Positions 2,540 through 22,659 of a stretch of DNA of 32,684 bases are shown one piece after another. Both the position numbers and the translations under genes were made by a program. The number at the start of each line of letters is the position of its first letter. Within the stretch, counting starts at the first letter, position 1. The notes beneath the pieces are model-generated. The model worked only from the letters and a program-made list of their open reading frames with translations. It was not told where the DNA came from and did not search any database. The DNA is from Bryobacterales bacterium (lineage in GTDB: Bacteria; Acidobacteriota; Terriglobia; Bryobacterales; UBA6623), in NCBI GenBank assembly GCA_022824585.1, contig JAJDZN010000272.1:1-32684 (forward strand), written 5' to 3'.

Positions 2540-3970
2540 CTATGCCATCGCCTTTTGGACGAGCCTGCCGTGAACATCGGTCAAGCGGAAATTGCGCCCT
2601 TGGTACTTGAACGTAAGCTTCTCGTGGTCGATCCCCAGCAGGTGCAGGACGGTCGCCTGGAGGTCATGCACATGTACGGGATCCTCGGTAATGTTGTAGC
2701 TGAAGTCGTCAGTTTCGCCAATCACTCCCGGTCGAATGCCCGCCCCGGCGAGCCAGATGGTAAAGCAGCGCGGGTGGTGGTCGCGCCCGTAGTTGCCGGA
2801 CGTGAGCTTGCCCTGGCTATACACCGTGCGGCCGAACTCGCCGCCCCAGACGACCAGCGTGTCCTTGAGCAAGCCGCGCCGGTCTAGGTCCTTGACCAGC
2901 GCCGCTGAGGCTTGGTCCGTGTCCTTGCACTGCCTTCGGATCTGCTCGGGCAGGTCGGTGTGCTGGTCCCAGCCGCGGTGGAACAGCTGCACGTAGCGCA
3001 CGTCTCGCTCCAACAGCCGGCGCGCCAGCAGGCAGTTCGCCGCGTAGGTGCCGGGCGTACGCGAATCGGGACCATAGAGTTCGAAGGTGGATTCGGGCTC
3101 GGACGAGATATCGGTCAGCTCCGGCACCGATGCTTGCATGCGAAATGCCATCTCGTACTGCGAGATGCGTGTGAGTATCTCGGGATCGCCGAAGTCCTCG
3201 TACTTGATCTGGTTGAGCCGGCCCAGATCGTCCAAGAACCGCCGCCGGCCGTCGCGGTCAATGCCCTCCGGATCGGACAAGTAGAGTACGGGATCGCTGT
3301 TCGAGCGGAACTTGACCCCTTGGTAGCGGGTCGGCAGGAACCCGCTTCCCCAGAGCCGGTCGTAGAGCGGCTGCCCGTTGCGGCCCGACCCTGACGAGAC
3401 CATCACGACGAAGCCGGGAAGGTCGCGGTTCGCGCTGCCGAGTCCGTAAGAAATCCACGCGCCGATGGAGGGCCGGCCGGCCAGTTGCGCTCCGGTTTGG
3501 AAGAATGTGACGGCCGGGTCGTGGTTGATCGCCTCCGTGTGCATGGACTTGACAATGCACAGGCGGTCGGCGATCTCGGCCGTGTGGGGCACCAGCTCGC
3601 TCATCCACGCGCCGGTTTGCCCGCGCTGGCGGAACTCGAAGAGCGAGGGCGCGATCGGGAATGTCGACTGCGTGGCGGTCATGGCGGTCAGGCGCTGCCC
3701 CTGGCGCACCGACGAGGGCAGGTCCTGGCCGCTAAGCGCTTCGAGTCCCGGCTTGTAGTCGAACATGTCCAGCTGCGACGGCGCGCCGGACTGGAACAGG
3801 TAAACCACCCTCTTGGCCTTGGGTGCAAAGTGGGGCAGCCCGGGCAATCCGGAGTCCGGCAGCTCCTCTCCCAGCAGGCTGCCGAGGGCGGCGATGCCCA
3901 AGCCGTACGCGCTCTTGCCGAAGAAGTGGCGTCGCGTGCTCAGGGCGGATGCCGCAAAGGGTTGTGGCAT
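2540..3970 (-). CDS. Tat-exported DUF1501 protein
   Basis: Exported protein of the DUF1501 family, which has an alkaline phosphatase/sulfatase-like fold and no firmly known substrate. From the ATG at 3970 it has 476 residues and begins with a twin-arginine signal ([20 protein letters not shown]). Family landmarks are [18 protein letters not shown], the [14 protein letters not shown] segment with a potential metal-binding His/Asp pair, WDQHTDLP, and GGEFGRT followed by [15 protein letters not shown]. An ATG at 4042 is in frame, but the TATAAT at 3989-3994 lies between the two starts, so 3970 is the better choice. DUF1501 proteins normally pair with DUF1549/DUF1553 proteins; that partner sits 0.8 kb upstream, separated by a cupin gene. 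Downstream genes on the same strand are DUF3311 and the symporter, possibly one operon. Confidence 0.9.
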
Positions 3971-3988
3971 GGTCTCGAATCCGCGTCC

Positions 3989-4017
3989 ATTATACGCTTG
4001 ACACTGGCGGCTGACAT
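3989..4017 (-). promoter_or_regulatory. Predicted promoter of the DUF1501 gene
   Basis: On the minus strand ATGTCA (4/6 match to the -35 consensus) is followed after 17 nt by a perfect TATAAT. Transcription would start around 3982, giving a leader of only about 12 nt before the ATG at 3970. This placement also excludes the longer in-frame start at 4042. Confidence 0.5.
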
Positions 4018-4135
4018 AACGTGTTCGGCCGTGGCGACGCATCCGGCTTCGCCCGAGGCGCTGGTTTCCGCTCCGGTCCGTGAACGCTAACGTCGCGGCC
4101 GACCGAGCGGATCCCGCGACCCCGTGCCGGTGTGT

Positions 4136-4546
4136 CTAGCCAGCTCGTCGACTAGGGGATCGATCGTCTTCCGTTGGCCAGCGGCCAGGGACACGGTAGG
4201 CTTCGTCGTCTCCCGGCCAAGGGGGAATCGTGGCTAGGACGAACTCCAGCGGTGTGTCCCCGGTGTTTCTGAACTGGAAGTGAGCGCCGAGGGGAATTGC
4301 GAGAGAAGTGCCGAGCGAAACGTCAATGACTTCCTCGCGTTCGCCGAGCTTGCGCCAGACTTGGCCCTGGCCGGCAAGGAAATACCAAACCTCCTCCACC
4401 GTTCTGTGCGCCACTGCCCCCGAGGTTTGTCCCGGAGGCAGCGAGCAGTGCGCCATGCTCCCGCTTGCCGTGGCTGCGAGGACGCGGATCTCGGAGCCGT
4501 CCGGGGCCAGCACGTCATAGGCTTCGGGACGGTGCTTGGTTTGCAT
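4136..4546 (-). CDS. Cupin domain protein
   Basis: Small single-domain cupin of about 136 residues, cytoplasmic (no signal peptide). The two cupin motifs are visible: motif 1 is PPGQTSGAVAHRTVEEVWYFLAG, where His and Glu are probable metal ligands, and motif 2 is IPLGAHFQFRNTGDTPLEF with the ligand His. Such proteins can be isomerases, dioxygenases or sensors; nothing here fixes the reaction. The ATG at 4546 is chosen because GAAG lies 7 nt upstream; an in-frame ATG at 4552 and a GTG at 4570 are alternatives. The gene lies between the DUF1501 gene and the cytochrome/DUF1553 gene on the same strand, so it may act in the same pathway. Confidence 0.8.
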   Translation of the reverse strand: MQTKHRPEAYDVLAPDGSEIRVLAATASGSMAHCSLPPGQTSGAVAHRTVEEVWYFLAGQGQVWRKLGEREEVIDVSLGTSLAIPLGAHFQFRNTGDTPLEFVLATIPPWPGDDEAYRVPGRWPTEDDRSPSRRAG

Positions 4547-4570
4547 GGTCATTCTTCGAGTGCTCGACAC

Positions 4571-4780
4571 TATGCGGCCTTCGGTCTATACGGTGTCCAC
4601 GGTACAACGGGGTTGCACGGACTGCCAACCTCGCCGCTGACAGGGCAGCTGTCCGATGGAAGGAACGAGGCGAGCGGGAATGTTCGTCGCCAATCCGGGC
4701 GGGCTGGTGTCAGACTGCTGCCTCGAACGCGGATGTGTGGCTAGGACTACCCGCTATCCGGGATCTCTTCGGGGAGCGCA
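4571..4780. other. Intergenic spacer, no gene seen
   Basis: This 210-bp stretch lies between the cytochrome/DUF1553 gene and the cupin gene. I found no convincing coding frame. A small inverted repeat (GACAG-ggcag-CTGTC) near 4640 is too weak to call a terminator. Confidence 0.4.
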
Positions 4781-7700
4781 CTACTCTCGCGTGATCGTCT
4801 CGTCGAGGTTCAGCACCAAGCTGGCCATCATGGTGTATGCCGCGGCTTCGGGTTGCGAGACTTCGGCGGGGTGCCTCGGTTGCTCTCCCAACAGCGCGGT
4901 CGCAGCCTTGGGATCGCTGCGGAAGCGATCCACATGGTGGTTGAATCCGGACGACAAAACCTGTGTCTCGCGCTCGTTGGGGTGCCGTGAGGTCGCCAAG
5001 CGGAACATGTAGCCCAAGCGCTGGTCGCGCCCGTCGCCTGCTTCGCGCAGCGCCCTGCTGGCGAGCGCCTTCGATGCCTCCATGTAGGCGGCGTCATTCA
5101 TGCGGTTCAGAGCTTGCAAGGGAGTGTTCGTGCGCACGCTGCGCACCGTGCAAGCTTCGCGCCCGGCGGAATCGAACAGCATCATCGATGGCGGAGGCAC
5201 GGCGCGCTTCCAGAACGTGTACAGGCTCCTGCGGTACAGGTCGGCTCCGCTGCCCACGTCGTAGTCGGCTCCGCCGGCCAGCTCGGTCCATAGCCCGGCA
5301 GGCTGGTAGGGACGCACCGAGGGGCCGCCCAGCCCTTCCACCAACAGGCCCGAGACGGCGAGGCTGAGGTCACGGACAGACTCTGCGGGCAGGCGCAGGC
5401 GAGGACCGCGGCCCAGCAGCCGGTTGTCCGGATCCGGCCCGACCTCGCCTTGGCGCAGGCGGGACGACTGGCGGTAAGCCGCGCTCATCACAATCGTCTT
5501 GGCCAGGGCCTTCATGTCCCAGCCGGATTCCATGAACTCCACGGCCAGCCAGTCCAGCAATTCGGGGTGGGTGGGCCATTCACCTTGCGATCCGAAGTCT
5601 TCGACCGTCTCGACGATGCCAGCGCCCCACAGCATCTGCCACACGCGGTTGACGGTGACGCGCGCAGTCAGGGGATTGTCGCGGGAGACCAGCCAGCGGG
5701 CGAAGCCCAGCCTGTCGCCCGGATCTGCAGGCGACAGGGCCGCAGGCAGACCCGGCTGCACTTGCTCGGCGGGAGCGTCGTAGGCCCCTCGATCCAGGCG
5801 GAACGTCTTGCGCCGGGGCGACGCCTCTTGCATCACCATCACCGTGGGCACCGCGTCGAAGTACTGGCCTTGCTCGCGCTCCAAGTCCCGGATCCGTGCC
5901 GACAAGGCCGTCAGATCTGCCGGGCCGAGCGCCTGGCGATAGGCCTGCTCGAGCTTCAGAGACTGGGTCGGAGTGCGGTTGGCCGCGGGGATGGCGGCGA
6001 TCTGGTCGAGGCTGCGCTCTTCAGACGCGATGCGCATCTCTTCTGGGGTCAAGGCCCGGCCGTAGATCAACAGGCGGCGCAGCTTGCCCCGGTAGTCGAA
6101 CCCCAGGCCGCGACCTACCCGCAGAGGCTCCTTCGAGCGGATCTCTTGGTTCATTTCATCGCGGATGACCTTGAGATCGACCGATTCCCCGTCGATGAAG
6201 ATGCGGACTCCCGAGGCCAGCCGGGTGCCGTCATAGGTGAAGCCGACTTGCTGCCACTCGCCGATAGCGACCGGCTGCACAGTCTCAAGCCGCAGGCAGT
6301 CGTCCAGCCAGCGGTTGACCAGGTTTACCTGCAGCTTTCCGTCCTTGAGGTACAGGCCCCAGCCGGGGTTGGACTGGGTGTCATCTTCCGGCAATACGTG
6401 CCTGGTCCTCGAAACGATCGTCCCGTTCGGGTCTTCCGGGTGGATCCACGCAGTGACGCTGAAGCGGTCGCGAAAGCCGAAACTGGCCTTGTCGCCCAGC
6501 TCGGCGAAGCTGCCGGGTTCGAACGCGCGCTCGGCCGGCCTTGGCAGATCGTGGCCTTCTGGGAACGCAAGCGTGAGGTCGAGCCCGTCGATCCACTCGG
6601 TAGGCTCGCTCGCAATATCTCGCTCCCACTCCGGTCGGCCACTCTGGTGGCGCTCCTCAACGCGGTCTCGGTCGGCGCGCGCGGCAGCCAGATCTGCGTT
6701 CATCCGGGCCAGGGTGGCCTGCTGCTCGCTAGTGGGGGCTTTGACGAAGGGCGGGGAATTGCCGTACTTGAACGCCTTCCCCTTCTCCGGCACGTTGTTG
6801 AAATAAGCAAACAGCTCGTAATACTCCGTTTGGGTGAACGGGTCGTACTTGTGGTCGTGGCAGCGAGCGCAGCCAAGCGTCAGTCCCAGCCAGACCGTCG
6901 AGGTTGTGTCGACGCGGTCGACTACATACTCCACCGCGTACTCGGCGTCGACGATGCCGCCCTCGCCGTTGCCCCGGTGATTGCGATTGAAGCCAGTCGC
7001 GATGATTTGGTCCAAGCGGGCGTTGGGAAGCATGTCGCCCGCGATCTGCTCGATAGTGAATTCGTCGAACGACTTGTTGGCATCGAAGGCTTCGATGACC
7101 CAGTCGCGCCACCGCCACATGTCGCGTTCGGCGTCGGTCTGGTAGCCGTTCGTGTCGGCGTAGCGCGCAGCGTCGAGCCAGCGGATCGCCATCCTTTCCG
7201 CATAGCGGGGCGACGCCAGGAGCCGGTCCACGACGGTCTCGTAGGCATCCGGAGCGTCGTCTGCCATGAAGGCGTCAATGTCGCTCAGTTCCGGGGGCAT
7301 GCCCGTCAAGTCCAGACTTGCTCGGCGGATCAGCGCTTCCTTGGATGCCGGTGCCGATGGCTCCAGGCCCTCGGCGCGCATGCGGCGCAGGATGAAGCTG
7401 TCCACCGGGTTGACTGGCCAGCCGGGGTGCTCGCCAGCAGGCACGGCGGGCCGCTGCGGCGGTAGAAACGCCCAGTGTCCCTGCCACCGGGCACCTTCGG
7501 CGATCCACTGGCGCAGCAGTTCGATCTCGCCGTCCGCGAGCGGGTCATGCCCCATGGCCGCCGGCGGCATGCGCCTGCTCGGGTCTGAAGCCGATACGCG
7601 CAGGAACAACTCGCTGCTGCCAGGATCGCCGGGCACGATAGCCTTGCGCCCTCCACTGAGCGCCGTTTCCGCCCCCAGTTCGTTGTCTAGACGGAGGGAT

Positions 7701-7861
7701 GTCATGCGCTTGGCCGCGTCCGGGCCGTGGCAGGCAAAGCAGTTCTCGGACAGGATCGGGCGAATGTCGCGGTTGAACTGCACGGTCGCCCCCGCCAGCG
7801 GGCTCAGGGCTGCGCCCGCGAGCAACATGTGCAGCAGTGGGGCTGGAACTCGCACGATCAC
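4781..7861 (-). CDS. Exported cytochrome c / DUF1549 / LamG / DUF1553 protein
   Basis: Large exported multidomain protein (1026 residues) of the type first described in planctomycetes and common in acidobacteria. In order: a Sec signal (about 1-25, ending LAGA), a planctomycete-type cytochrome c domain with CFACH at 41-45 and the ligand-like RRMPP near 100, DUF1549 (about 150-360) with a second haem-type motif CARCHDHKYDPF, a LamG/concanavalin-like domain (about 445-600; FSVTAWIHPEDPNG), and DUF1553 (about 715-975; RVTVNRVWQMLWGAGIVET). It is probably periplasmic or surface-bound, moving electrons while the LamG part binds carbohydrate; the substrate is unknown. Its usual partner is a DUF1501 protein, present at 2540-3970. 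The start is GTG at 7861, with another GTG two codons later; a TATAAT ends 5 nt before 7861, suggesting a leaderless message. Confidence 0.92.
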   Translation of the reverse strand: MIVRVPAPLLHMLLAGAALSPLAGATVQFNRDIRPILSENCFACHGPDAAKRMTSLRLDNELGAETALSGGRKAIVPGDPGSSELFLRVSASDPSRRMPPAAMGHDPLADGEIELLRQWIAEGARWQGHWAFLPPQRPAVPAGEHPGWPVNPVDSFILRRMRAEGLEPSAPASKEALIRRASLDLTGMPPELSDIDAFMADDAPDAYETVVDRLLASPRYAERMAIRWLDAARYADTNGYQTDAERDMWRWRDWVIEAFDANKSFDEFTIEQIAGDMLPNARLDQIIATGFNRNHRGNGEGGIVDAEYAVEYVVDRVDTTSTVWLGLTLGCARCHDHKYDPFTQTEYYELFAYFNNVPEKGKAFKYGNSPPFVKAPTSEQQATLARMNADLAAARADRDRVEERHQSGRPEWERDIASEPTEWIDGLDLTLAFPEGHDLPRPAERAFEPGSFAELGDKASFGFRDRFSVTAWIHPEDPNGTIVSRTRHVLPEDDTQSNPGWGLYLKDGKLQVNLVNRWLDDCLRLETVQPVAIGEWQQVGFTYDGTRLASGVRIFIDGESVDLKVIRDEMNQEIRSKEPLRVGRGLGFDYRGKLRRLLIYGRALTPEEMRIASEERSLDQIAAIPAANRTPTQSLKLEQAYRQALGPADLTALSARIRDLEREQGQYFDAVPTVMVMQEASPRRKTFRLDRGAYDAPAEQVQPGLPAALSPADPGDRLGFARWLVSRDNPLTARVTVNRVWQMLWGAGIVETVEDFGSQGEWPTHPELLDWLAVEFMESGWDMKALAKTIVMSAAYRQSSRLRQGEVGPDPDNRLLGRGPRLRLPAESVRDLSLAVSGLLVEGLGGPSVRPYQPAGLWTELAGGADYDVGSGADLYRRSLYTFWKRAVPPPSMMLFDSAGREACTVRSVRTNTPLQALNRMNDAAYMEASKALASRALREAGDGRDQRLGYMFRLATSRHPNERETQVLSSGFNHHVDRFRSDPKAATALLGEQPRHPAEVSQPEAAAYTMMASLVLNLDETITRE

Positions 7862-7866
7862 TTGCG

Positions 7867-7872
7867 ATTATA
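7867..7872 (-). promoter_or_regulatory. TATAAT -10 element abutting the cytochrome/DUF1553 start
   Basis: A perfect TATAAT on the minus strand lies only 5 nt before the GTG at 7861. Initiation about 7 nt downstream would fall at the start codon, implying a leaderless transcript that uses the GTG at 7861 or the one at 7855. No good -35 is seen at 16-18 nt. Confidence 0.4.
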
Positions 7873-8035
7873 CGGCGCTCGGGGCGGCTGCGGCTCCAAT
7901 TCTTCAGGGGGGATGGATCGAACGAAACGGCTCTTCACGCCCTATTCTCGGGATCAGAGTTGCCACGAGCCGATGTCCGTTCTCAGGGGGCGCCAGCGTT
8001 GCGGAAGCGTCCAAGGCTGCGGATCGGACCGGGGC

Positions 8036-8566
8036 TCACATGACCCTTGGAGCCTCTTGGCGCGCGATCAGCACAACAGCGTGCGCCTCGGCTAGCTCAC
8101 CGCTGCCTACCGGCCCGACACCCTCGCCGGTCTTGGCCTTCAGGCCGACCGCGGACGCTTCGATTCCCAGCAGGGAAGCGATGTTCTGGCGGATGCGGTC
8201 GCGATGCGGCAGCAGCTTGGGCTTTTCGATGATGACCACGGCGTCTACGTTGACGACCCTCCAGCCGTAGCCGGTCAACAGTTCTGCCGCATGGCGCAGG
8301 AACACGCTGCTGTCCGCCCCTTTCCATTGCGGATCCGTGGGCGGAAAGAGCTCCCCTATGTCGCCTTGAGTCGCCGCGCCCAGCATCGCATCGGTGATCG
8401 CGTGCAGCAGGATGTCGCCGTCCGAGTGGCCCAGCAGACCCTTGTCGGCCTCGATCGCGATCCCGCCCAGGACTAGCTCGCGGCCTGCGGCCAGCCGATG
8501 GCAGTCGTATCCGATTCCGACGCGAGTCTCAGTCGGCTCAACACCGGGGAATGGGGGCGGATTCAC
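8036..8566 (-). CDS. ispF: 2-C-methyl-D-erythritol 2,4-cyclodiphosphate synthase
   Basis: Cytoplasmic MEP-pathway enzyme that converts 4-diphosphocytidyl-methylerythritol 2-phosphate to the cyclic diphosphate with release of CMP. The 176-residue product, average for IspF, shows the metal-binding GIGYDCHRL segment, LGHSDGDILLHAITDAMLGA with the conserved His, GDIGELFPPTDPQWKGADS, and LKAKTGEGVG near the C-terminus (the usual substrate-binding Thr-Glu). The start is GTG at 8566, preceded by GAAGAA. The first 29 nt lie inside the end of ispD in another frame, so the two are translationally linked. The pair is split as two genes rather than the IspDF fusion found in some bacteria. Confidence 0.95.
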   Translation of the reverse strand: MNPPPFPGVEPTETRVGIGYDCHRLAAGRELVLGGIAIEADKGLLGHSDGDILLHAITDAMLGAATQGDIGELFPPTDPQWKGADSSVFLRHAAELLTGYGWRVVNVDAVVIIEKPKLLPHRDRIRQNIASLLGIEASAVGLKAKTGEGVGPVGSGELAEAHAVVLIARQEAPRVM

Positions 8567-9269
8567 GGTTTTCTTCGTCGAAGTAGAGCTGCGCGATCGA
8601 GAGGTGGTGCGGGCGCGTTATCTTGATATTGCGCTCGCTTCCGCGCAGCACGTACACGTCTTCGTTGATGTGCTCCACCAAGCTGGCCTCGTCCGTCGCT
8701 GTGAAACCGTCCTGGGTCGCTTGGCGGAAGGCGCGCTTGAGCAGGTCGACGGCGAAGACCTGAGGCGTCTGGACCAGCATGATGCGCTCGCGGGGCAGGG
8801 TGGCCCGCACGACCTTGAGGCTGATTTGCTTGACGGTCTCTTCGGCGGGCATGCCGAGAATCACGGCGCCTCGCCGGGCGGCTTCGTCCAGCGCCTGCTC
8901 GATCAGGCTCACCGGGACGAACGGGCGGACGCCGTCATGGACCGCTACGAACTGGATCCCGTCCGACACCTCGTCGAGGCAGTGCCGAACGGACTCCTGG
9001 CGGTTGCGCCCGCCTGCCAGCGCGCGCACGCGGGACGTCTTTGCAGTGTCTGCGAGCATCGCTTGCACGTCCGCTTCGCTGCCTTCCGGCACCGCGACCA
9101 AGATCTCCTTGATCCTCGGGACGGCTAGGAACTTGCGGATCGTCAGCGCGAGGATCGGTACGCCGCCCAGCTTCATGAACTGCTTGCGGTCGCTGCCGTA
9201 GTCCTTCGACAGGTCCTTGCCCATGCGCGTGCCGTGCCCGGCAGCCGGAAGGATGGCCGCGACGTCCAT
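8538..9269 (-). CDS. ispD: 2-C-methyl-D-erythritol 4-phosphate cytidylyltransferase
   Basis: Cytoplasmic MEP-pathway enzyme that joins CTP and methylerythritol 4-phosphate. The 243-residue protein has the nucleotide-binding ILPAAGHGTRMG loop at the N-terminus, KQFMKLGG with the conserved Lys, VHDGVRPFV in the middle, VQTPQVF, TDEASLVE, and GSERNIKITRPHH close to the end, all standard for IspD. An insertion-like DLSKDYGSDR follows the glycine loop. The start is ATG at 9269. Its end overlaps the start of ispF by 29 nt, so both are made from one message. This is a housekeeping gene pair unrelated to the flanking catabolic genes. Confidence 0.95.
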   Translation of the reverse strand: MDVAAILPAAGHGTRMGKDLSKDYGSDRKQFMKLGGVPILALTIRKFLAVPRIKEILVAVPEGSEADVQAMLADTAKTSRVRALAGGRNRQESVRHCLDEVSDGIQFVAVHDGVRPFVPVSLIEQALDEAARRGAVILGMPAEETVKQISLKVVRATLPRERIMLVQTPQVFAVDLLKRAFRQATQDGFTATDEASLVEHINEDVYVLRGSERNIKITRPHHLSIAQLYFDEENRESAPIPRC

Positions 9270-9355: not shown

Positions 9356-10240
9356 TTACGAAGCCAGGGCCCGCTTGCAGTAATTGAAGCACTTCTCGAC
9401 TTCCTCTACGGTGTCGCCGCCCTTGTACTCGTACTCGATGTTAGCGGGGATGTCGTAGCCGTTGTCGCGCAGCAGGGCGAGCGTCTCGCGGATCGGGGTG
9501 TCGCCCTCTCCGAACGGCACGTTCTCGCCTTGGTCCCGCTTGCGGTCCTTGATGTGCAGCGTGACGATCTGCGCGTGGTGCCGCTTGATGTAGTCGATCG
9601 GGTCGAAGCCGGCGGCGATGAAGTGGCCGATGTCCAGATTGACCACGATGTGGCTGTTGCCCTTGGACGCGGCTGCGAAGTCGTCCGGCGTGGCGTACTC
9701 GTTTTCCCGGATGCGGGAATGGTTGTGCATGCCGACTTGCAGGCCGTAGCGCTGGGCGTGGGCATTGACGCGCCCGGCCACGCTGACCGTGCCGGACGCG
9801 GTGAGCGCCTTGGCGCCCATGGCCTTGGCCATCTCGAAGCCCCGGGCGATCTCTTTATCGGAGAAGTGGTCGCGGAAGCTGTAGTTGAACGAGTTCAGTT
9901 CGATCCCGGCCTCGTGGAAGCTCTCGCCGATCTCCTCGTAGTGGCTCAGCGGCGTCTCCAGGCGGAAGGCGCGCAGCTTCTCGCGATCCCTGCGGAGTTC
10001 GCGCAACGGCTCCGTGTGGCCGCTCCACAATTCGCAAGAGCCGATGCCGATTTGCTTCATCGCCGCGATCGCTTCGTCTAGGGGACGATCCCGGAAGCTG
10101 TAGCTCTGTGCGCCGATGGTCACCCCAGAGAACGTGGAATTGATCCTGTCGTGGGCGGTGAAGACACGAGCTCCAGCCAAGCCGGCACCCGCACCGAGCG
10201 CAATGCGGGTGAACTTCCTGCGTGTGAAACTAGATTGCAT
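9356..10240 (-). CDS. Tat-exported TIM-barrel sugar isomerase/epimerase-like protein
   Basis: AP-endonuclease-2/xylose isomerase-like TIM barrel of 294 residues with a twin-arginine signal at the N-terminus (TRRKFTRIALGAGAGLAGA), so it is probably exported folded with its metal. Candidate metal or substrate residues are the Glu in CELWSGH, the His residues in MHNHS, Asp and His in NLDIGHF, and His and Asp in LHIKDR. Exported relatives are often annotated as sugar phosphate isomerases, but an extracytoplasmic protein is more likely to act on free sugars or glycosides (inference). The start is ATG at 10240 with a strong AGGAG Shine-Dalgarno 5 nt upstream. It is transcribed away from the Cache/solute-binding gene with a 189-bp divergent spacer. 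Confidence 0.88.
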   Translation of the reverse strand: MQSSFTRRKFTRIALGAGAGLAGARVFTAHDRINSTFSGVTIGAQSYSFRDRPLDEAIAAMKQIGIGSCELWSGHTEPLRELRRDREKLRAFRLETPLSHYEEIGESFHEAGIELNSFNYSFRDHFSDKEIARGFEMAKAMGAKALTASGTVSVAGRVNAHAQRYGLQVGMHNHSRIRENEYATPDDFAAASKGNSHIVVNLDIGHFIAAGFDPIDYIKRHHAQIVTLHIKDRKRDQGENVPFGEGDTPIRETLALLRDNGYDIPANIEYEYKGGDTVEEVEKCFNYCKRALAS

Positions 10241-10429: not shown

Positions 10430-13400
10430 GTGACGCGAACAACCTGGTTCCTCCTGCTAGCCATTCTTGTACCGATTGCCGCTTTGCCCGCACGCGCCAG
10501 CGAGCCGGTCAGTTGCGCGGAGCACCAAATCAGCGCGAGCGCCGTCCGCACGACGAGCGACGTCCAGGCGTTCGTTCGGTGCGCGGCGGAGTACTTGGCT
10601 GAGCACGGCGCCGCCGAAGCCAGGCGAGCGTTCAATGAGGACGAGCGCTGGAAGCACGGCCCGATCTACCTGTTTGTCGAGCAGGTTGCGCCGTCCGCAG
10701 ATGAAGCGCTCGTCTACATTTACGCGCGCGATCCGTCCAGAGAAGGCGACGTCTGGGGCACCTATATCGACGCGTTTGGGACCGATTACTATTCCGAGTC
10801 CTTTCGCATGCTGGGACTTGTCGATTCCGGCTGGATGTATTACTGGAGCGGAAACCCGTCCTCGGGGACGCAACAGCCTAAGAGTTCGTATCTGGCCGAA
10901 GTGGACTGGGAAGGCCGGCGCGCCGCGGTCGGGGCTGGCATCTACGCTCCCGACCTGCCCGGCACCTGCAGCTCCGACGAAGTGAATGCGGCCGACTTGG
11001 CGGCCGCTCCGAGCGAGGCAAAGCTAGAGGCCTTCGTGCGCTGCGCCGCAGTGTTGCTGGAGGAGAAGGGCTACTTCGCCCGCGAGGAGCTCGAAACGAG
11101 CTCGCGCTGGCGGCACGGCTCCAACTACGTATTCGTTATGGACTTGGAGGGAAACCAAGTCCTGACCGGCAACGGCGTGCGGATCAACGGCAAGGCGCTG
11201 CACGAGTTCGGCGGCAAGAGCGATCCCATGGACCAATTCAGCGGGCGCGACATGGTCGCTGTGGGAGATGCGTTTGGCGAGGCCCTGATCTACTACCGGG
11301 GCCGCAATCCGAAGACAGGCGCCATCCAGCCCAAGGTCGGAATGCTAAAGCGCGTCGTCTCGCACGGCGTGCCACTCGTCTTGGGCGCGGGTTACGAGCT
11401 GGGCTCGGAACCGGCGGTCCGCGAACCCTCCTGCGACGAGAACCGCGTCACGGCTCGCGGGATCCGCACGCGGCGGGACCTTCAAGCGTTCGTACGGTGC
11501 GCGGCCGAGTACATTGAGCTGCACGGCGAGGAGGAGGCATACCGGGCCTTTCACAATGACGAGCGGTGGCGTCACGACGACGACCTCTACTACGTCTTTG
11601 TCAATTTCCTTGCGCCGACCCCCGAGCAGTTCATCTCGGGCACTGCGGTGTTCCCTCCAGAGCCCTTTCGGGAAGGAGCCTCGCGGGAGCTCGTGGATAA
11701 TTTCGGGACTGACTACTACTACGAGCTGCACCGCGTGTTGCGAGACGTGGATGAGGGATGGCTGCACTACGCCTTCACCAACTTCAGCGCGGGAAGATCA
11801 GAGCCGAAGAGCTCTTACGTCGTAGAGGTGGACTGGAACGGGCGCCGCGCTGCGGTCGGGGCCGGAATCTACCTCCACGACCTGCCTGGCACGTGCCCTA
11901 GCGGGGAAGCAGAAGTCAACGCGGCGGCGCTGGAGGCTGATCCAAACGAGCAGAGACTGAGGGACTTCGTTCGATGCGCGGCGTTCGAAGTCGAGTCCCA
12001 GGGGTACTTCGCCGGGGCCACGCTGGCACACGATCCGCGCTGGAAGGGCGATTCGATCTATGTGTTCGGCGTCGACGTGCACGGCAACACGCTGTTCTCG
12101 GGCGATCGCGGCAGCCGGTCCGGCATGCGCGCATCCGAGCTGAGCCCAGCCGGCGGCCAGGACAGGGTAAGCGTGGGCGACGCGTTCGGCGAAGCCTTGC
12201 TGCACTACACGGCCCGCAACCCCTCCACGAAGATGCCGGAACGCAAGGTGACGTTCGTCAAGCGGGTGATGGCACAGGGGCTACCGATCCTAGTCGGCGC
12301 CGGATACTATCCGGACTACCGCCCGGCCGCGGTTCTGCCTTCGGAAGGAGCCGATCCAGGCACAGGCGCCTCCGGCGGAGGCATGCAGGCCGCGGGGCGG
12401 GGCGACACTGCGACTCTGATCCAGTGGCAAGCGCCAACGACTCTCAACCCCTACCTCTCAAGGGGGACCAAGGACGCCGAGGCCGCCACGCTAGTGATCG
12501 AGCCGCTAGCCGAGTACGATCCGGACGGGATGTTGATTCCCGCGCTTGCGGCACGTATCCCCTCGGTCGCCAACGGCGGAATCCCACAGGACCGCACGAG
12601 CGTCACTTGGAGCCTCCGCGACGATGTGGTTTGGTCCGACGGCACGCCGTTCACCGCGCATGACGTGGTGTCTACTTGGCGGTACTGCACTGCCAGCAGC
12701 GTGGACTGCGCGCGCACCTCGCGCTTCGATCGCGTGGTGTCGGTCGAGGCGGTTGACGAGCGAACCGTAACCATCACGTTTGACGGCCCGGTCGCGTTCC
12801 CCTTCTCGCCGTTCGTTTCCATTCAGAGCCCGGTTCTCCAAGCATCCCAGTTTGCCGACTGCTTGGATGCGGGCGTAGCCTGCGGCGATGCGAATCGAAT
12901 TCCGCTCGGCACCGGTCCGTACATCGCGGCAGACTTCCGCGCAGGTGACTCCGTCCGCTACGAGTTCAATCCGCAGTACCGCGGCGCCGGAGTCGGGCAA
13001 CCGTACTTCCGGGAAATCGTCCTGCAGGGGGGAGGCGACGCGATTCAAGCGGCAAGGTCCGTTCTGGAGCTGGACGAGGCCGACTATGCTTGGAACCTCC
13101 AAGTCGAACCCGACACCTTGGCCGCGATCGCGGACGGCGGGAGCGGAGTTGTCGTCTCGGGATTCTCCACGAACGTCGAGCGGCTGCTTCTCAATCAAAC
13201 CAATCCGGATGCGGGCCTGGGCGGCCTCCGGTCCGAGTACGCGGACGGCACGAACCCTCACCCCTTCCTGACCGACCCGGTCGTAGGCCGGGCTCTGTCG
13301 CTGGCGATCGACCGCAGCGCGCTCGTGCGGATCGGCTACGGCGACCTCGGAGGCCGGCCCACGTGCAATGTCTGGCCGGTACCGGGCCAGGCGTCGAGAA

Positions 13401-14035
13401 ACAACGACGAGTGCCTGGTGCAGAACCTCGAATTGGCCAATTCGATTCTCGATGATGCCGGGATCGTGGACTCAGATGGAGATGGCGTAAGGGAACGCGA
13501 CGGAGTCCCGCTCAAGGTCCTGCTCCAGACCTCGACGAACGCCGTTCGCCAAGCCACCCAAGACCACATCAAGGCATGGTGGGCGGAAATCGGCGTGGAG
13601 GCCGAGCTGAAGCACATCAACGCGTCCGTGTTCTTCGGCGATGACCCCAACAGTCCCGACACGGCCGGGAAGTTCTATGCAGACGTCCAGATGTACACGA
13701 CAGGGGGCAGTAGCTCGGATGCGGAGGGCTATCTCGTATCGTGGACCTCAGGCGAGATCGCGCGAGCGGCCAACTCGTTCCGCGGCAGCAACTCGGAACG
13801 CTTTAGCTCTGATGAATTCGACCGCCTCCATCGCGAACTGAGAACTACCTTCGACCCGGACAAGCGCCAACAGATCACGATCGCCCTGAACGACTTGCTC
13901 GTACAAAGCTACGCGACCATCCCGCTGATCCACCGCGGATCCGTGGCGGCCTACGGGAATGACATCGAGGGCTTCCACGTGAATGGTTGGGACTCGGATC
14001 TCTGGAATATCGAGGCGTGGACCCGTCGCGAGTAG
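10430..14035 (+). CDS. Exported protein: four Cache-like modules fused to a family 5 solute-binding protein
   Basis: Exported protein of 1201 residues. A Sec signal (1-24, ending ARA) is followed by four Cache-like ligand-binding modules at about 30-180, 182-325, 335-490 and 494-632. Each has a FVRCAA helix motif (48, 202, 354, 513) and ends in a PK...GAGIY or GAGYY strand. Modules 1 and 3 resemble each other (FGTDYY, EVDW-GRRAAVGAGIY, DLPGTC), as do 2 and 4 (VGDAFGEAL, NP-T, VPLVLGAGY). A Gly-rich linker (about 638-660) leads to an SBP_bac_5 domain like peptide/nickel-binding proteins (LRDDVVWSDGTPFTAHDVV; ATIPLIHRG). Cache modules bind small ligands in sensors and SBP_bac_5 proteins feed ABC importers, but no permease or ATPase gene is nearby. 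It may capture or sense several ligands; its function is not known. The start is GTG at 10430 behind a promoter-like pair. Confidence 0.85.
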   Translation: MTRTTWFLLLAILVPIAALPARASEPVSCAEHQISASAVRTTSDVQAFVRCAAEYLAEHGAAEARRAFNEDERWKHGPIYLFVEQVAPSADEALVYIYARDPSREGDVWGTYIDAFGTDYYSESFRMLGLVDSGWMYYWSGNPSSGTQQPKSSYLAEVDWEGRRAAVGAGIYAPDLPGTCSSDEVNAADLAAAPSEAKLEAFVRCAAVLLEEKGYFAREELETSSRWRHGSNYVFVMDLEGNQVLTGNGVRINGKALHEFGGKSDPMDQFSGRDMVAVGDAFGEALIYYRGRNPKTGAIQPKVGMLKRVVSHGVPLVLGAGYELGSEPAVREPSCDENRVTARGIRTRRDLQAFVRCAAEYIELHGEEEAYRAFHNDERWRHDDDLYYVFVNFLAPTPEQFISGTAVFPPEPFREGASRELVDNFGTDYYYELHRVLRDVDEGWLHYAFTNFSAGRSEPKSSYVVEVDWNGRRAAVGAGIYLHDLPGTCPSGEAEVNAAALEADPNEQRLRDFVRCAAFEVESQGYFAGATLAHDPRWKGDSIYVFGVDVHGNTLFSGDRGSRSGMRASELSPAGGQDRVSVGDAFGEALLHYTARNPSTKMPERKVTFVKRVMAQGLPILVGAGYYPDYRPAAVLPSEGADPGTGASGGGMQAAGRGDTATLIQWQAPTTLNPYLSRGTKDAEAATLVIEPLAEYDPDGMLIPALAARIPSVANGGIPQDRTSVTWSLRDDVVWSDGTPFTAHDVVSTWRYCTASSVDCARTSRFDRVVSVEAVDERTVTITFDGPVAFPFSPFVSIQSPVLQASQFADCLDAGVACGDANRIPLGTGPYIAADFRAGDSVRYEFNPQYRGAGVGQPYFREIVLQGGGDAIQAARSVLELDEADYAWNLQVEPDTLAAIADGGSGVVVSGFSTNVERLLLNQTNPDAGLGGLRSEYADGTNPHPFLTDPVVGRALSLAIDRSALVRIGYGDLGGRPTCNVWPVPGQASRNNDECLVQNLELANSILDDAGIVDSDGDGVRERDGVPLKVLLQTSTNAVRQATQDHIKAWWAEIGVEAELKHINASVFFGDDPNSPDTAGKFYADVQMYTTGGSSSDAEGYLVSWTSGEIARAANSFRGSNSERFSSDEFDRLHRELRTTFDPDKRQQITIALNDLLVQSYATIPLIHRGSVAAYGNDIEGFHVNGWDSDLWNIEAWTRRE

Positions 14036-14150: not shown

Positions 14151-15011
14151 GTGGAAACTGCAAAGCACTTCAAGCTCTCGGTCTGCAACGAACTCTACGG
14201 CGACACCGATTTCGCAGATTCGTGCCGCTCGATGCGCCGCGCGGGATGGACCGGTATCGAGATTGCGCCGTTCACGTTGATGCAGGACGCGACAGGGCTG
14301 CCTGCCGAGCGTCGGCGCGAGGTTCGTGACATCATCGTCTCCGAGGGGCTCGGATTCGTTGGCTTGCACTGGCTTACGGTCGGTCCGGAGGGGTTGCATG
14401 TCACTACGCCAGACGAGACTGTGCGGCGACGCAGCTGGGAGTACGTGCGCGGGCTGGTCGAGCTTTGCGCCGACCTGCGCCCGGAGGGCTCTACGGGCGG
14501 CGTCATGGTGTTCGGCTCGCCGGTCCAGAGAAGGACCACAGGCGGGCTGACCCGAGCGCAGGCCGAGGCCAATTTCATCGAGGGCGTGCGCTCGATCGTC
14601 CCGGACCTTGAGGCATCTGGGGTGACCCTGTGTGTCGAGGCGCTGCCCACGGACCAGTGCGATGTCATCATCTCGCTGGATCGCGCAGCGGAAATCGTCG
14701 ATGAGATCGGCAGCGCCAGGGTCCAGACCATGTTCGATTCGCACAACGCGATCGAAGAGGAGCGGCCTCACGCAGAGCTGGTGTCCAAGCACTGGTCAAA
14801 GATCCGCCACATCCACGTCAACGAACTGGACGGCAGCTATCCGCGCAGAGGGGGCGGCTACGACTTCAAGCCGGTGCTGCAGGTGGCCGCGGACCGCGAC
14901 TTCGAAGGCTGGGTGTCCATGGAGGTGTTCGACTTCTCGCCCGGTGCGGAGAGGATAGTCACGGAGTCGATCGCCTACTTGAAGGACGAGATCGACCAGC
15001 TCCAGGGCTAG
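14151..15011 (+). CDS. TIM-barrel sugar phosphate isomerase/epimerase-like protein
   Basis: Cytoplasmic AP-endonuclease-2/xylose isomerase-like TIM barrel, 286 residues, with no signal peptide. Likely metal ligands are visible in order: Glu in LCVEALP, Asp and His in MFDSHN, His in HIHVNE, and Glu in VSMEVFDF near the C-terminus, the pattern of D-tagatose/D-psicose 3-epimerase and related enzymes. The reaction is probably epimerisation or isomerisation of a ketose or inositol-like compound; the substrate is unknown. The start is GTG at 14151. TAGAGT lies 6 nt upstream and no Shine-Dalgarno is seen, so a leaderless start is possible. It follows the Cache/solute-binding gene on the same strand after 115 bp and meets the gene for the secreted 160-residue protein tail to tail. 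Confidence 0.88.
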   Translation: METAKHFKLSVCNELYGDTDFADSCRSMRRAGWTGIEIAPFTLMQDATGLPAERRREVRDIIVSEGLGFVGLHWLTVGPEGLHVTTPDETVRRRSWEYVRGLVELCADLRPEGSTGGVMVFGSPVQRRTTGGLTRAQAEANFIEGVRSIVPDLEASGVTLCVEALPTDQCDVIISLDRAAEIVDEIGSARVQTMFDSHNAIEEERPHAELVSKHWSKIRHIHVNELDGSYPRRGGGYDFKPVLQVAADRDFEGWVSMEVFDFSPGAERIVTESIAYLKDEIDQLQG

Positions 15012-17657: not shown

Positions 17658-18998
17658 CTAGACGCGGCTGAAGATCGAATCGCTCAGCGTGGAAGTGCTG
17701 TCGGCGAACGATTCCAAGCCGATCCCCATGGAGTGCAGAATGCTGAGATACATGTTCGACATGCGCGTCTCGCCGTCCCGCCAATACGCGCCGTGGCGCA
17801 GGCCCATGTTGGCGCCGCCGACCAGCAACGTCGGCAAGTTGCGCGAGGTGTGCGTCGTGCTTGCACCACTGCCATACAGCACGATGGTGTTGTCCAGCAC
17901 AGTGCCCTCGCTGTCGCGGTAGCCCTCCATCCTGCCGAAGAAGTGTGCGAGCTGCTGGCTCAGGAACAGGTCGTACTTGGCGAATTGCCCTTGGCCGTGT
18001 TTGTCCGTCGCGTGTGACAGCTTGTGGTGGGTAGCCGACAGGCCGAGCTTCAGCGGGAATGTGTCGCTGATCCCCATGCCGTCCTCGCGATTGAGCATGA
18101 ACGCTACCGACCGGGTGATATCCGCATCGAAGGCCAGTGCGATCAGATCGAACATGGTTTGGTAGTACTCGGCCGGCTCGCCCCCCGGTGTGGCGTCGAG
18201 GTTCAAGTGCGAGTAGTCCTGCCGCTTCAGCGGGATGTCGATCCAGCGCTCGGACGCGATCATGCGCGACTCGAGTTCATCCAGCGAGGTCAGGTACTGG
18301 TCCATCTTCTGGCGGTCGGAATTTCCCAGCTGGCGGTCCAGCGAACGCGCGCTCTCTGCCACGGCATCGACGAGCTTGATGCGGCGCTGCAGGCGCGCGC
18401 GCTCGGATTCCATGGATTCGCGGTCGCCGCGGAACAGGCGGTTGAAGACACGGCGGGGATTGTTCTCGGCCGGGATTGGCCGGCCCTCAAAGTTGTAGGA
18501 GATCGTCCCCGTGCGTGAGAGGTAGCCCGTGCCAGCGTCGATGGAAAGCACCAGCGAGGGCTGGCGGCAGTGCTGCTTGGTGTGCTGCGCCACCACTTGA
18601 TCGAGGGCGACGGTGTTATAGGTTCCCGGCTTCGGGTTGTGCAGCGGGGCGCCGGTCAGCCACATGTCCGAGCAGGTATGCGGGTCAGCCTTGGGGCCGC
18701 TGGGATGGTACAGCCCGCCCATGAAGCTCAGCTTTTGCCGAAACTCGCTCAGCGGCTCGGTCGAGCGGCCGAAGACGAACTCGCCTTCGCGCTCGGCAGT
18801 CGGGAACCAGCTCCATTCGTCGATGCCGTTTTCAGATCGCGGCAAGGCCATGCCGTTGGCCGTGTACAAGGCGCAGAACCGGCGCGGGGTCTGCTCGGCC
18901 ACTTCGGCTCCCATGGCATCCAAGACAGGCAGCGCCAGCGAGGCCCCCCCGAGGCCGTAGAGGAACGCTCGTCGGTCGATCTTGCGGGACATGGTCAT
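17658..18998 (-). CDS. DUF1552 exported protein
   Basis: Member of the DUF1552 family, about 446 residues, with an N-terminal Tat-like signal ([21 protein letters not shown]). Family landmarks are [41 protein letters not shown], the long charged helix around [15 protein letters not shown], and [24 protein letters not shown] near the end. DUF1552 proteins almost always accompany DUF1587/1592/1588-type cytochrome proteins, and the gene for one ends 22 nt upstream. Their joint activity is not known; extracytoplasmic oxidation or hydrolysis of a polymer is a common guess. The chosen start at 18998 has GAGAGG 4-5 nt upstream; ATG at 18992 is an alternative, and a longer in-frame start at 19019 lacks such a site. 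Confidence 0.9.
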
Positions 18999-19020
18999 TG
19001 AGCCTCTCTGGGCAGCCACC

Positions 19021-22000
19021 CTACTTTTCCAGGAAAAACTTGCTCGTGACTACGTAACGGAGCATGTCCTGCATCCGGTAGCCGCCTTGCTTGAGCTTCA
19101 ACCCATCTTGCTGGAGATAGCTTACTTCATTGTAGGCAAGATCGCGACCGTTGGCATAGGTGACTAGGTGCTTGAGCACGCTGAATGCGACCTGGTCGAT
19201 CCGGTCCTCGCCCAGGTAGCGCTTCAGATCGCCTATGCCGGACACTTCCGTGCTGTCCGGCAGCATCGAGCGGGCGTCCACCGGGTCCTGCTTGAACAGT
19301 CCGTCGGCGTCGAACTCCTCGAGCGCGACGCCCCACGGGTCGATCTTAAGATGGCATTGAATGCAGCCGGGCTGGCTGCGATGCTGCTCGAGTCGCTGGC
19401 GGAGGGGCAGGCCCTCGGTGCTCTCGCTGAGATCCGGCACGTTCGGCGGAGGATCGTCGGGCGGCTCGGAGATGATCTTGCGGGCTAGCCAAGCTCCGCG
19501 CTTGACTGGATTCGACTCACGCCCGTCAGAGAGGCCGGCCATGATCGCAGCTTGGCTCAGCAAGCCGCCGAGTTCGGGTCGGCCGTGGACCATGGGCGCG
19601 AAGTCGAGCCCGCTCTCGGTGCGGTCGCCCAGGCCGTAGTAGCTGGCGACAACCTCGTTCGCGACGATGTAGTCCGACACGATCAGGTGCCTTGCGGGCA
19701 GGTTGTTGCGGAACAGGTGCCGCAGCAGTTCGATCGGCTCGCGCCGCAGCTGCTTGCGCGTGGCCCGCGTTAGCTTGGGGAAGCGCTCGCGGTCAGGCTC
19801 CAGTATGTCAATCTTGTCAAGACTGAGCCATTGCGAGGCAAACTCATGTACGAATCGCCCAAAGCGCGCGTCAGCCACCATGCGCCCGACTTGGTCGCCG
19901 ACCTGAGAGCGCAGTTTGCCGGTGGCGGCCAGCTCTAGGAGTTCGCGATCCGGCGCGGCGTTCCACAGAAAGTAGGACAACTTGGACGCGAGCTCGTGCT
20001 CTTCCAATTGCTCCGGCTCCGGCGTGGCGCTGCGCTCGACCAAGAACAGGAACTGCGGGGACGTGAGAGCGACTTGCAGCGCGTCCTTGATGCCGTCGCG
20101 AAACTTGCCCGAGTCCGCCAGGGAGGACCGGTAAACACCCAGCAGCGCCGACACTTCGGCCTCCGACACGGGGCGCCGGTAGGCCCGGCTCGCGAAATTG
20201 GAAATCACGCGCCGCGCATAGGCGTCCGAGTCGGTCTTGCGGTCGAAGTCCACGAAAACGCTGCTATGCGACTCTGGCGGCCATTGGTCGTAGAACGGCC
20301 CTTCGAACTCCACTGAGCGGATCATCAGGCGCGGCATGTCGCGCCCATCGGTGTACTCGCTGCGGACGCCGATCTCGCGGACGCCGGCCAGATAGTTGAT
20401 GTTGTCCTTCTCCACGTCGGGACTCGGGAAGTCTTGGATTGCGCCCTCGAACACGAAGCGCCGCAGGTCGGTCCCGGGCACGGACTGGGGCGCGCCGACC
20501 GGTGCAAGCGTGCTGCCGCAGTCGCGCCGGAGGCCAAGGTAGACTCCGAGGCGCGGAACGCGCTTTTCAAACGCTTGGAATCTCCTGGCGACATCGTGGT
20601 CGGCGTCAAGCAGCGTGAGCACGATCCTGTCCAAGTCCTTGACGCCCGTCGGGGCAGCGCTAACGGGAAGCGTGCCCGCTTCGAGCCGGACGGCTAGGAA
20701 CGCGGGCTGCTCCAGAGTGCCCGAGAATTGGCGACCGCCCAGCGTCAACGTCACTTCTTGGGGCTTGTCGGGGGGCGGCTCGGCAAAGTGCTGACCGGGC
20801 TTAACCAAGGCTTGCAGTTCGGCTTCGCTGAGTGCCCGGCGGTAGAGTCGCACCTCGTCAATTTGCCCGCGAAACGGACCCTGCTGGGGGGTTTGGCCGA
20901 TATGTAGGTCGAGTTCAGGATTGTCTAGGTCTGCCGCCTCGATCGTCCCCCGCGCGACGGCGTAGCCGTTCACGTAGAGTTTGGCCTCGTTCGCGCCCCG
21001 CCGCACGATGGCTGCGACATGCTGCCAGACCTTTGGCTTCAGCACTCCCCGCGACGATGTGACCACGCCGTTGGTCTCGTGTGTAGGGCCCGTCGTCTCG
21101 AGGCGCAGTGAGCCCCGGTTATCTGCCATTTCCAGAAACCAACCGTGGGTGCGCTGGTTGGCGCCGCGCGCTACGATGCCGGCCCGGTGGTTTTGCTTGG
21201 GCCTGATCCAAGCCGCGACACTAAAGTCAGAAGTGCCGACATTGAGGTCTACCGGCTGGCGGACTACCGCGCCGCCCTCATAGTTCGCTCCATCGAGCGA
21301 GAGTGCTTTCCCGAACGGCGAGTCGACGAAGCGTCCCTTTTCGCCTAGCTCGATGGCTTCGTCGCCGTCTAGCGTCCACGCCCCTGCGAGGCCTTCGCCT
21401 AGTCGCGAGAGGTCTGTAACCGGCGTCGGCTCGCTCCGGGGTGTTTCGTAGATGTCGACTTGGTATATGCCGCCGCGCTCCAGTCGCACTGTGCTGGTCC
21501 GCTCTGGATCGAGAGCTGCCGCACTTGGGTTGCGGCCTCGAGGCTGGGCGGCATCGCTCTTGTCCAACAGCAGCCCATCGTTGTACTTTGCAGCGGTGAC
21601 GGTGACGCGGAAGTGTCCGTGGTCGGGTAGCTCCCGCACCGAGATTTTGAAGTTCGCCTTCGGCCCGAAGGTTCCGTCCAGGCGGAACAACTCATCGTTG
21701 GGTATCGCCGGCCGGAGCAGCAGGCCCTCCGGAACTGTGCTGTACGGCAGGCCCTTGGGATAGCCGCGGCTACCGCGCATGCAGGCGAACACAGCGTGGT
21801 AGATGGTGTCGAACTCGCGCCAACCCCGCACGGTTGCATTGCCCCGGTAGCCCTCGTTGAAGCGGTAGCTAGTGCGCATGCGCTTGTGCTCGAAAGCGAA
21901 CGGCTTGGCGGGCGTGGGTTCGCTGACCACGTAGTCGGGAGTGGAGAGCAGCATGCTGTTCGCGCCGAGGATCAGCTCCTCCTCCAGCGGCTCGGGATTG

Positions 22001-22659
22001 ATCCCGGCCCCGAGATCGACGCGGAAGTTCTGGATTGAAGGCCTTGCATCGGGGTCGACGATGGCTCGGCCGAGAGCCTCGTCGGCGATCCGCAGATAGG
22101 CCTCCATCAACAGGGGGGAAAGCTCTAGGGTGGCGGTGTTGTTCACGAAGCCGTCCTTGGAGATCGCATCCGGCGGCAGCGTATCGGTGATGTCGTCCTG
22201 CAGTCGCAGCAGTTCGCGCAGGGTGTTCCGGTACTGCGCCACCGTGAGTCGGCGCACGACGCCGTTCTTTGGCACGGGCCTTGAACGCGCTACGTCCAGA
22301 GCTTGCTCGATCCAAGCATCCATGCGCTGACGTTCGGCGGCCGTGGGCTGGGGTGCGCCCTTCGGGGGCATGGACTCGTCGACCACCCTCTTCTTGACGA
22401 CTTCCCATAGGCGAAGGTGCCGGTCTTCCAGCGCGGCGTCGAGCTGATCCAAGCGGACGCCCGACATGGCGGTGTTCTCGTTGTGGCAGGCGACGCAGTT
22501 TTGGTTCAGGAATGGTCCCGCAGTCTGTTCGAACGACGCTTCAAGCGATGGCGGCGCACCATCTGCTGCATCGGAAGGAAGCAAGCTCAGGTTCCAAGCA
22601 ATAATCACGGTGCCGGCAAGGGCGATGCCCAACCTTGCCTGTGGTCTCGTTGGTGTCAT
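19021..22659 (-). CDS. Exported cytochrome c / DUF1587 / LamG / DUF1595-1592-1588-1585 protein
   Basis: Very large exported protein (1212 residues). A signal anchor (about 10-32) precedes a cytochrome c domain with CVACH at 55-59 and the ligand-like MPPKG near 97. Then come DUF1587 (about 135-200; [17 protein letters not shown]), a LamG domain (about 440-620; [21 protein letters not shown]), DUF1595 ([16 protein letters not shown]), DUF1592 ([17 protein letters not shown]), DUF1588 ([23 protein letters not shown]) and DUF1585 ([20 protein letters not shown]). A second haem-type motif, CIQCH, lies near 1100 between the last two. Such proteins are thought to act outside the cytoplasm in polymer or sugar oxidation. 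The LamG insertion between DUF1587 and DUF1595 suggests carbohydrate contact (inference). Forms a two-gene operon with the DUF1552 gene. The start is ATG at 22659 with AGGA just upstream. Confidence 0.92.

Follow-up and report, generated by a model that had tools for sequence, protein, structure and literature searches.

Solute-binding proteins (SBPs) are assigned to transport, and Cache domains to membrane receptors, by default; a gene from a Bryobacterales bacterium (Acidobacteriota) that joins the two on one exported chain raises the question of what an importer's binding domain does in such company. The gene lies in a stretch of 32,684 nucleotides (GenBank assembly GCA_022824585.1, contig JAJDZN010000272.1, positions 1 to 32,684 of the forward strand), referred to here as the window, and encodes four Cache modules followed by an SBP_bac_5 domain. 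We refer to the genus of this bacterium as g1 (11 draft genomes), to the genome that holds the window as G000, to the family as f1, and to another genus of f1 as g6. In g1, selection maintains the binding domain of an ATP-binding cassette (ABC) importer in genomes where hallmark permeases are undetected, and the chain that carries it is soluble, with four sensory modules and no output domain. It is probable that the g1 protein captures or senses small molecules rather than aiding import. Since both kinds of binding domain stand on a soluble chain, and since no hallmark permease domains were detected in g1, either default annotation may mislead here.

Architecture of the fusion protein

The gene (10430-14035, + strand, GTG start) encodes 1201 residues, which three Pfam-A families match above their gathering scores: SBP_bac_5 (E = 9.8e-54; 183.3 bits, cut-off 32.4; residues 717-1108, model positions 11-363 of 368), and, as whole-protein scores over three stretches each, dCache_2 (E = 2.1e-12; 47.2 bits, cut-off 26.5) and sCache_2 (E = 4.9e-12; 46.5 bits, cut-off 25). 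A Sec signal peptide was assigned by eye to about residues 1-24 (10430-10501, +), where the hydropathy maximum lies. The N-terminal 630 residues hold four modules, each with an FVRCAA motif and a [VL]GAG[IY] strand: module 1 (residues 28-178; 10511-10963), module 2 (179-331; 10964-11422), module 3 (332-488; 11423-11893) and module 4 (489-633; 11894-12328), all on the + strand. Modules 1 and 3 are 53% identical and modules 2 and 4 are 44% identical, whereas the remaining pairs share 24-30%; the array therefore has the order A-B-A-B. A Gly/Pro-rich linker (residues 634-657; 12329-12400, +) leads into the solute-binding domain (residues 658-1201; 12401-14032, +). By position, the 14 cysteines fall into potential pairs, one in each Cache module (Cys29/Cys51, Cys180/Cys205, Cys335/Cys357 and Cys489/Cys516) and three in the SBP part (Cys753/760, 811/818 and 979/995), and these pairs presumably form disulfides.

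Past the signal, there is no membrane-type hydrophobic stretch: the highest Kyte-Doolittle mean over 19 residues reaches 1.34 beyond residue 30, compared with 1.87 in the signal itself. A Pfam scan of the protein at E values up to 10 gave no MCP, kinase or cyclic-nucleotide output domain. A lipoprotein anchor via Cys29 was considered and rejected by eye, since the residues that precede it form no lipobox and Cys29 corresponds to the cysteine that is conserved in 98 of 107 modules. The features that the sequence-only reading had proposed for this protein, namely, four repeated modules with FVRCAA and a GAG strand, their Cache identity, a full SBP_bac_5 domain, export in soluble form with no transmembrane helix after the signal, and the lack of a kinase, are thus borne out.

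Distribution, origin and selection

Other Cache-SBP_bac_5 fusions, a search for which the same reading had proposed, were found in g1 and in two other genera. Because at most five candidates per genome (g1 and f1) or two (phylum sample) were scored, the counts are lower bounds. The fusion is present in 9 of the 11 g1 genomes. It is a single open frame in G000, G001, G002, G003, G004, G007, G009 and G010, where the G002 copy covers query residues 46-1201, its start being cut off, and G003 has two copies, one of them 65% identical; in G005, it is present as two overlapping frames. The break in the G005 gene (L056, 8001-12012) falls in the linker region, with the Cache array and the SBP in different overlapping frames and extra sequence between them. 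No SBP_bac_5 match was obtained in G006 or G008. A version with two Cache modules occurs in g6, where three genomes were covered and at least two (G015 and G017) have it, and, at 869 to 871 residues, in at least four genomes of family f23, genus g83 (G143, G169, G415 and G439), from another class, in an even sample of 396 phylum genomes. The remaining matches listed for that sample covered the SBP side, except for G505, which matched on the Cache side; some of the SBP-side alignments already start in the linker or within the final residues of module 4, and these were inspected in part. G458 was discarded as a further fusion: its SBP is free, has a twin-arginine-like start and showed no Cache part. 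No Cache module of this family was found at L106 to L120 among the open reading frames (ORFs) of at least 250 residues that passed a motif filter. The near-relative records are named as a Bryobacterales or Terriglobia bacterium, and their metagenome-assembled genomes presumably come from marine sponges.

The window is the entire contig C333 of the 341-contig genome G000, a fragmented draft with 6.41% contamination, and it might be suspected that assembly or gene calling had joined two adjacent genes. Recurrence of the fusion in separate named assemblies, with no internal stop and with the fused SBPs tested in one clade, rules out a chimeric assembly or frame artefact, and we consider this explanation extremely improbable.

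In an SBP tree that also held seven free and four outgroup rows, a single branch set the 14 fused domains apart from the others (support of 97/100, and 98% of 200 bootstrap trees). The corresponding value in an earlier tree, built with 10 fused rows, was 94/100; in that tree, the outgroup L067, perhaps read in the wrong frame, sat on a very long branch, and the second tree dropped L067, L065 and L072. Since the fused SBPs form one clade, a single origin of the fusion is favored among the rows tested. Because f23 and g1 stand in different classes, the fusion has likely been transferred between lineages, the tree being no proof of it. A Cache-pair tree (55 rows) tends to place the first pairs of four-module proteins in one group and their second pairs in another, with a weak split (71/72), and the two-Cache fusions fall on the second-pair side. 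The fused g1 arrays lie nearer to the Cache-only four-module arrays of g1 than the SBP history alone suggests, so a further exchange, of the SBP or of a Cache pair, may have taken place. A Cache-only protein of G006 has its first pair inside the fused group (99/85) and its second pair at the base of that group (100/98); loss of the SBP in G006 would fit this placement but is unproven.

Both halves of the fusion protein are under purifying selection. Against seven other four-Cache fusions, w (dN/dS) ranged from 0.11 to 0.20 in the SBP part and from 0.08 to 0.34 in the Cache modules, compared with up to 0.79 in the relaxed linker. Against the two-Cache proteins L030 and L031, it was 0.17-0.18 for the SBP and 0.24-0.39 for the aligned pair (modules 3 and 4); the stretches aligned to module 2 were partial (w of 0.85 and 1.08 over 57 and 28 residues) and were set aside. 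For the more distant pairs, with dS near or above 1, w is approximate. Fused and free SBPs (10 and 6 rows, excluding free L077, a fragment at a contig end, and four f23 fusions) share 132 invariant columns out of 544 and show three fixed differences (W/Y, V/I and S/A).

The SBP and its missing transport partner

The unfused relatives of the SBP are five Acidimicrobiales/Actinomycetota records (47-56% identical over the SBP) and one from G011 (51%). They are free proteins, several with lipoprotein-like N termini as judged by eye, and those of L058, L059, L061, L062 and G011 adjoin genes that read as Opp/Dpp-type permeases and ATPases; Pfam was run on both L058 permeases, one ATPase and the SBP, and on the G011 SBP, and L060 was left out of the neighborhood inspection. 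For the window protein, in contrast, no such permease or ATPase genes were detected. The parental DppB (L058 query, E of 1e-5), OppC_N and BPD_transp_1_N were each found in none of the 11 g1 drafts, while OppC_N and BPD_transp_1_N were each detected in 11 of 14 control genomes (OppC_N above its cut-off in 10). The cognate permease pair expected of an Opp/Dpp importer was therefore not detected in the g1 drafts. One of these, G008, is a single contig at 98% completeness and has neither OppC_N nor BPD_transp_1_N, but it is also without the fusion. The oligo_HPY family was found in two of the 11 g1 genomes (G001 and G006), G000 not being one of them. Since no hallmark permeases were detected in g1 and the nearest inspected unfused relatives stand beside Opp/Dpp genes, the SBP looks orphaned in g1.

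The only SBP_bac_5 domain of G000 is the fused one; among its congeners, additional copies are unfused in G002 and G007 and a fragment in G004. The G007 copy (L077, on C85) is an unfused fragment that groups with the G011 SBP (98/96) and may be contamination. The G002 copy (L076, on C289) is an unfused gene that may likewise be contamination, and its SBP is one that we take to be YejA-like.

The sequence-only reading had suggested that ligands might be presented to an unlinked transporter. If the fused SBP fed an unlinked ABC transporter, with the Cache array tuning or anchoring it, strong conservation of the SBP sequence would be expected, and it is observed. In addition, DppB-like proteins (30-42% identical over at least 200 residues) and OppC_N (six of six genomes) occur in the f23 and g6 carriers of the two-Cache version, so transport may operate there; these permeases are, however, far below the 67% identity of the G011 protein. 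For g1, the absence of all three permease signatures contradicts an importer role as far as drafts allow, and the scarcity of oligo_HPY also speaks against it. We regard such a role as improbable: delivery to an Opp/Dpp-type transporter is disfavored in g1 and may still take place in f23 and g6.

Cache fold and pockets

At the domain level, the window modules have the Cache fold, with its long N-terminal helix and PAS-like sheet. The whole-protein structure model had a pLDDT of 46.5 and was set aside for fold claims. A Foldseek search with a Cache-pair model returned PAS and dCache chains mixed (query TM-scores of 0.20-0.31, root mean square deviations above 10, 50 rows shown), and VIA-align was used for the structural comparison in place of these scores.

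Each module carries pocket-equivalent Tyr, Tyr and Lys residues (Y80, Y138 and K151 in module 1; Y233, Y289 and K302 in module 2; Y388, Y447 and K460 in module 3; Y544, Y593 and K606 in module 4), which are kept in 102 to 106 of 107 family modules. When the modules were set against the carboxylate triad of PscD, Tyr90/His103/Lys156, the Tyr and Lys equivalents were present in all four and the His in none, and the positions of PscD Trp92 and Trp145 were substituted in all four. With the triad incomplete in every module, we make no claim of carboxylate binding; the Cache pockets would probably take small carboxylate-like or other small polar ligands. For the SBP, none of the nine NCBIfam models listed reached its cut-off, so no named ligand class was assigned, and a ligand call from PDB sequence searches was dropped because mannoside, nickel, peptide and other binders matched alike.

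Tandem arrays across the family vary from 2 to 4 strong modules, plus weaker extras in some, and such variation would suit an adhesion, chaperone or scaffold protein in which the modules form a rigid extracellular rod and the pockets are irrelevant. The near-invariance of the pocket residues goes beyond the needs of a pure scaffold, although folding could also explain it, and we place this explanation below even the importer role in probability.

G000 also encodes many other exported Cache-array proteins that have no SBP (for example, L002, L003, L004, L012, L013, L014 and L015); they, too, contain 2 to 4 strong modules, with weaker additional ones in some. Several of these genes run into the end of a contig, possibly because repeats interrupted the assembly. 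At L012 (6539-7846 / 7783-8991), a two-module Cache gene is divergent beside a response regulator-SpoIIE phosphatase fusion, which is a possible signaling link for the Cache-only relatives.

A proposed role in sensing

We postulate that an exported Cache protein once acquired the solute-binding domain of an ABC importer of the Opp/Dpp type and that the fused product was retained as a transport-independent extracytoplasmic ligand binder. In its g1 form, this binder would be exported through Sec, remain soluble and offer five pockets, four in the Cache modules and a large one in the SBP_bac_5 domain. When ligands fill the Cache array and the SBP closes, the protein would change shape, and an unlinked membrane receptor would read the ligand-loaded form. 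That the pockets bind ligands, what those ligands are, that a receptor reads the state, and which receptor it is are all points that we infer. A periplasmic co-sensor read by an unlinked receptor is, of the explanations weighed here, the one that we favor, albeit tentatively. It is possible, with somewhat less assurance, that the SBP lineage left ABC transport altogether, through one fusion that produced a five-pocket extracytoplasmic integrator reporting a combination of small metabolites to a receptor, that moved between Acidobacteriota classes and that in one genus was kept after, or without, the Opp/Dpp importer.

Several observations weigh against the co-sensor. No ligand, receptor or phenotype has been identified, and receptors that read Cache or SBP proteins were not searched for in the g1 genomes. 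The genomes are drafts, and some BPD_transp_1 protein is present in all 11 g1 genomes, the family being common to many other importers; the OppC_N and DppB-like proteins of the f23 and g6 carriers, described above, also count here. The array relative in G006 groups with the fusion clade yet that genome has no SBP_bac_5. The SBP and the arrangement of the four modules are modeled unreliably, as the low whole-protein pLDDT indicates, and with His103 lacking from every module and the Trp pair replaced, the ligand class is uncertain. Finally, gene neighborhoods vary between lineages, so no partner is suggested by them.

Much of the same evidence would suit a ligand sink or buffer that scavenges several small ligands and keeps them in store, either in the periplasm or extracellularly, without any signaling partner. 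The orphan state of the SBP, the lack of an output domain and the failure to see a conserved partner gene are as expected of a sink, and the multiple Cache-only relatives in G000 suit bulk binding. However, a sink has no need of a sensory fold, and the carboxylate affinities of the PscD domain are modest (23-356 μM; PMC5062169). We therefore consider a sink rather unlikely, ranking it below the co-sensor and above the importer role and the scaffold.

The nearest precedent for the architecture, and a close structural one, is the Dret_0059 chain (PDB 5ERE), a structural neighbor of the window Cache pair, with its Cache match at 367-496. It is presumably periplasmic, without a transmembrane or kinase part, and we take its SBP to be of the type I class. 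Like the window protein, it has an SBP and tandem Cache/PAS-like domains on one chain with no second membrane stretch. Unlike the window protein with its four sCache_2 modules, it has a single tandem PAS-like unit, its structure is ligand bound, and its SBP is presumably N-terminal, given the position of the Cache match, whereas that of the window protein is C-terminal. A later paper describes Dret_0059 of Desulfohalobium retbaense as a cytosine-binding dCache protein, and the title of the source paper that it cites (Wu et al. 2017, Protein Sci 26:857) names solute-binding and tandem PAS-like domains (PMC8694187). Literature searches, judged by title or abstract opening, revealed no published Cache-SBP_bac_5 fusion. 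The earlier statement that no characterized protein has this architecture therefore stands for an exact match but has to be qualified by Dret_0059.

Other Cache proteins are more distant. Adeh_3718 (4k08) and PscD (5g4y/5g4z) are single sCache_2 modules joined to a membrane chemoreceptor, whereas the modules of the window protein have neither His103 nor the Trp pair, carry one cysteine pair each and are linked to no output domain. According to one study (PMC12889525), over 90% of Cache domains occur in fusions with signaling modules and stand-alone ones are rare. The sCache_heme proteins that it describes are likewise extracytoplasmic and without an output domain; they have one module, covalent heme and no SBP, while the window protein has no CXXCH motif. 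Multiple Cache domains on one chain are also found outside bacteria, in the alpha2delta calcium-channel subunits, which have two double Cache domains (PMC9901441).

If the co-sensor reading is true, the protein shows how part of an importer is recruited into sensing, and its modules offer pockets with which metabolite sensing in uncultured Acidobacteriota can be tested directly.

Gene neighborhood

The claim that there was no permease or ATPase gene in 32 kb holds for ABC proteins, none of which was found among the 22 other window ORFs scanned (of 106 ORFs of at least 100 residues). As a general statement, it does not hold, since the window encodes an SSF symporter (730-2262, -), a xanthine/uracil-type permease (31045-32679, -) and an AAA_33-type P-loop protein (30485-31048, -).

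The fusion gene stands between two distinct xylose-isomerase-like TIM-barrel genes, one at 9356-10240 (-) and the other, an AP_endonuc_2 gene, downstream on the same strand at 14151-15011 (+). A similar ORF follows the fusion gene, and TIM-barrel ORFs stand on one or both sides of it, in five of the seven listed named records; none follows in L053 and L055. Across the fusion lineages, no conserved neighbor that points to a partner was seen. In g6, the gene that adjoins the fusion is presumably an M19 dipeptidase.

Elsewhere in the window, there are two planctomycete-type clusters, one with DUF1501, PSCyt1/PSCyt2/PSD1 and LamG (2540-7861) and the other with HXXSHH (DUF1552), PSD2-5/PSCyt and LamG (17658-22659). 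A putative cyclase gene followed by a pyrroloquinoline quinone (PQQ)-type beta-propeller dehydrogenase lies at 23070-25780, and a perfect 21-base tandem repeat is present in 2.2 copies at 28463-28509.

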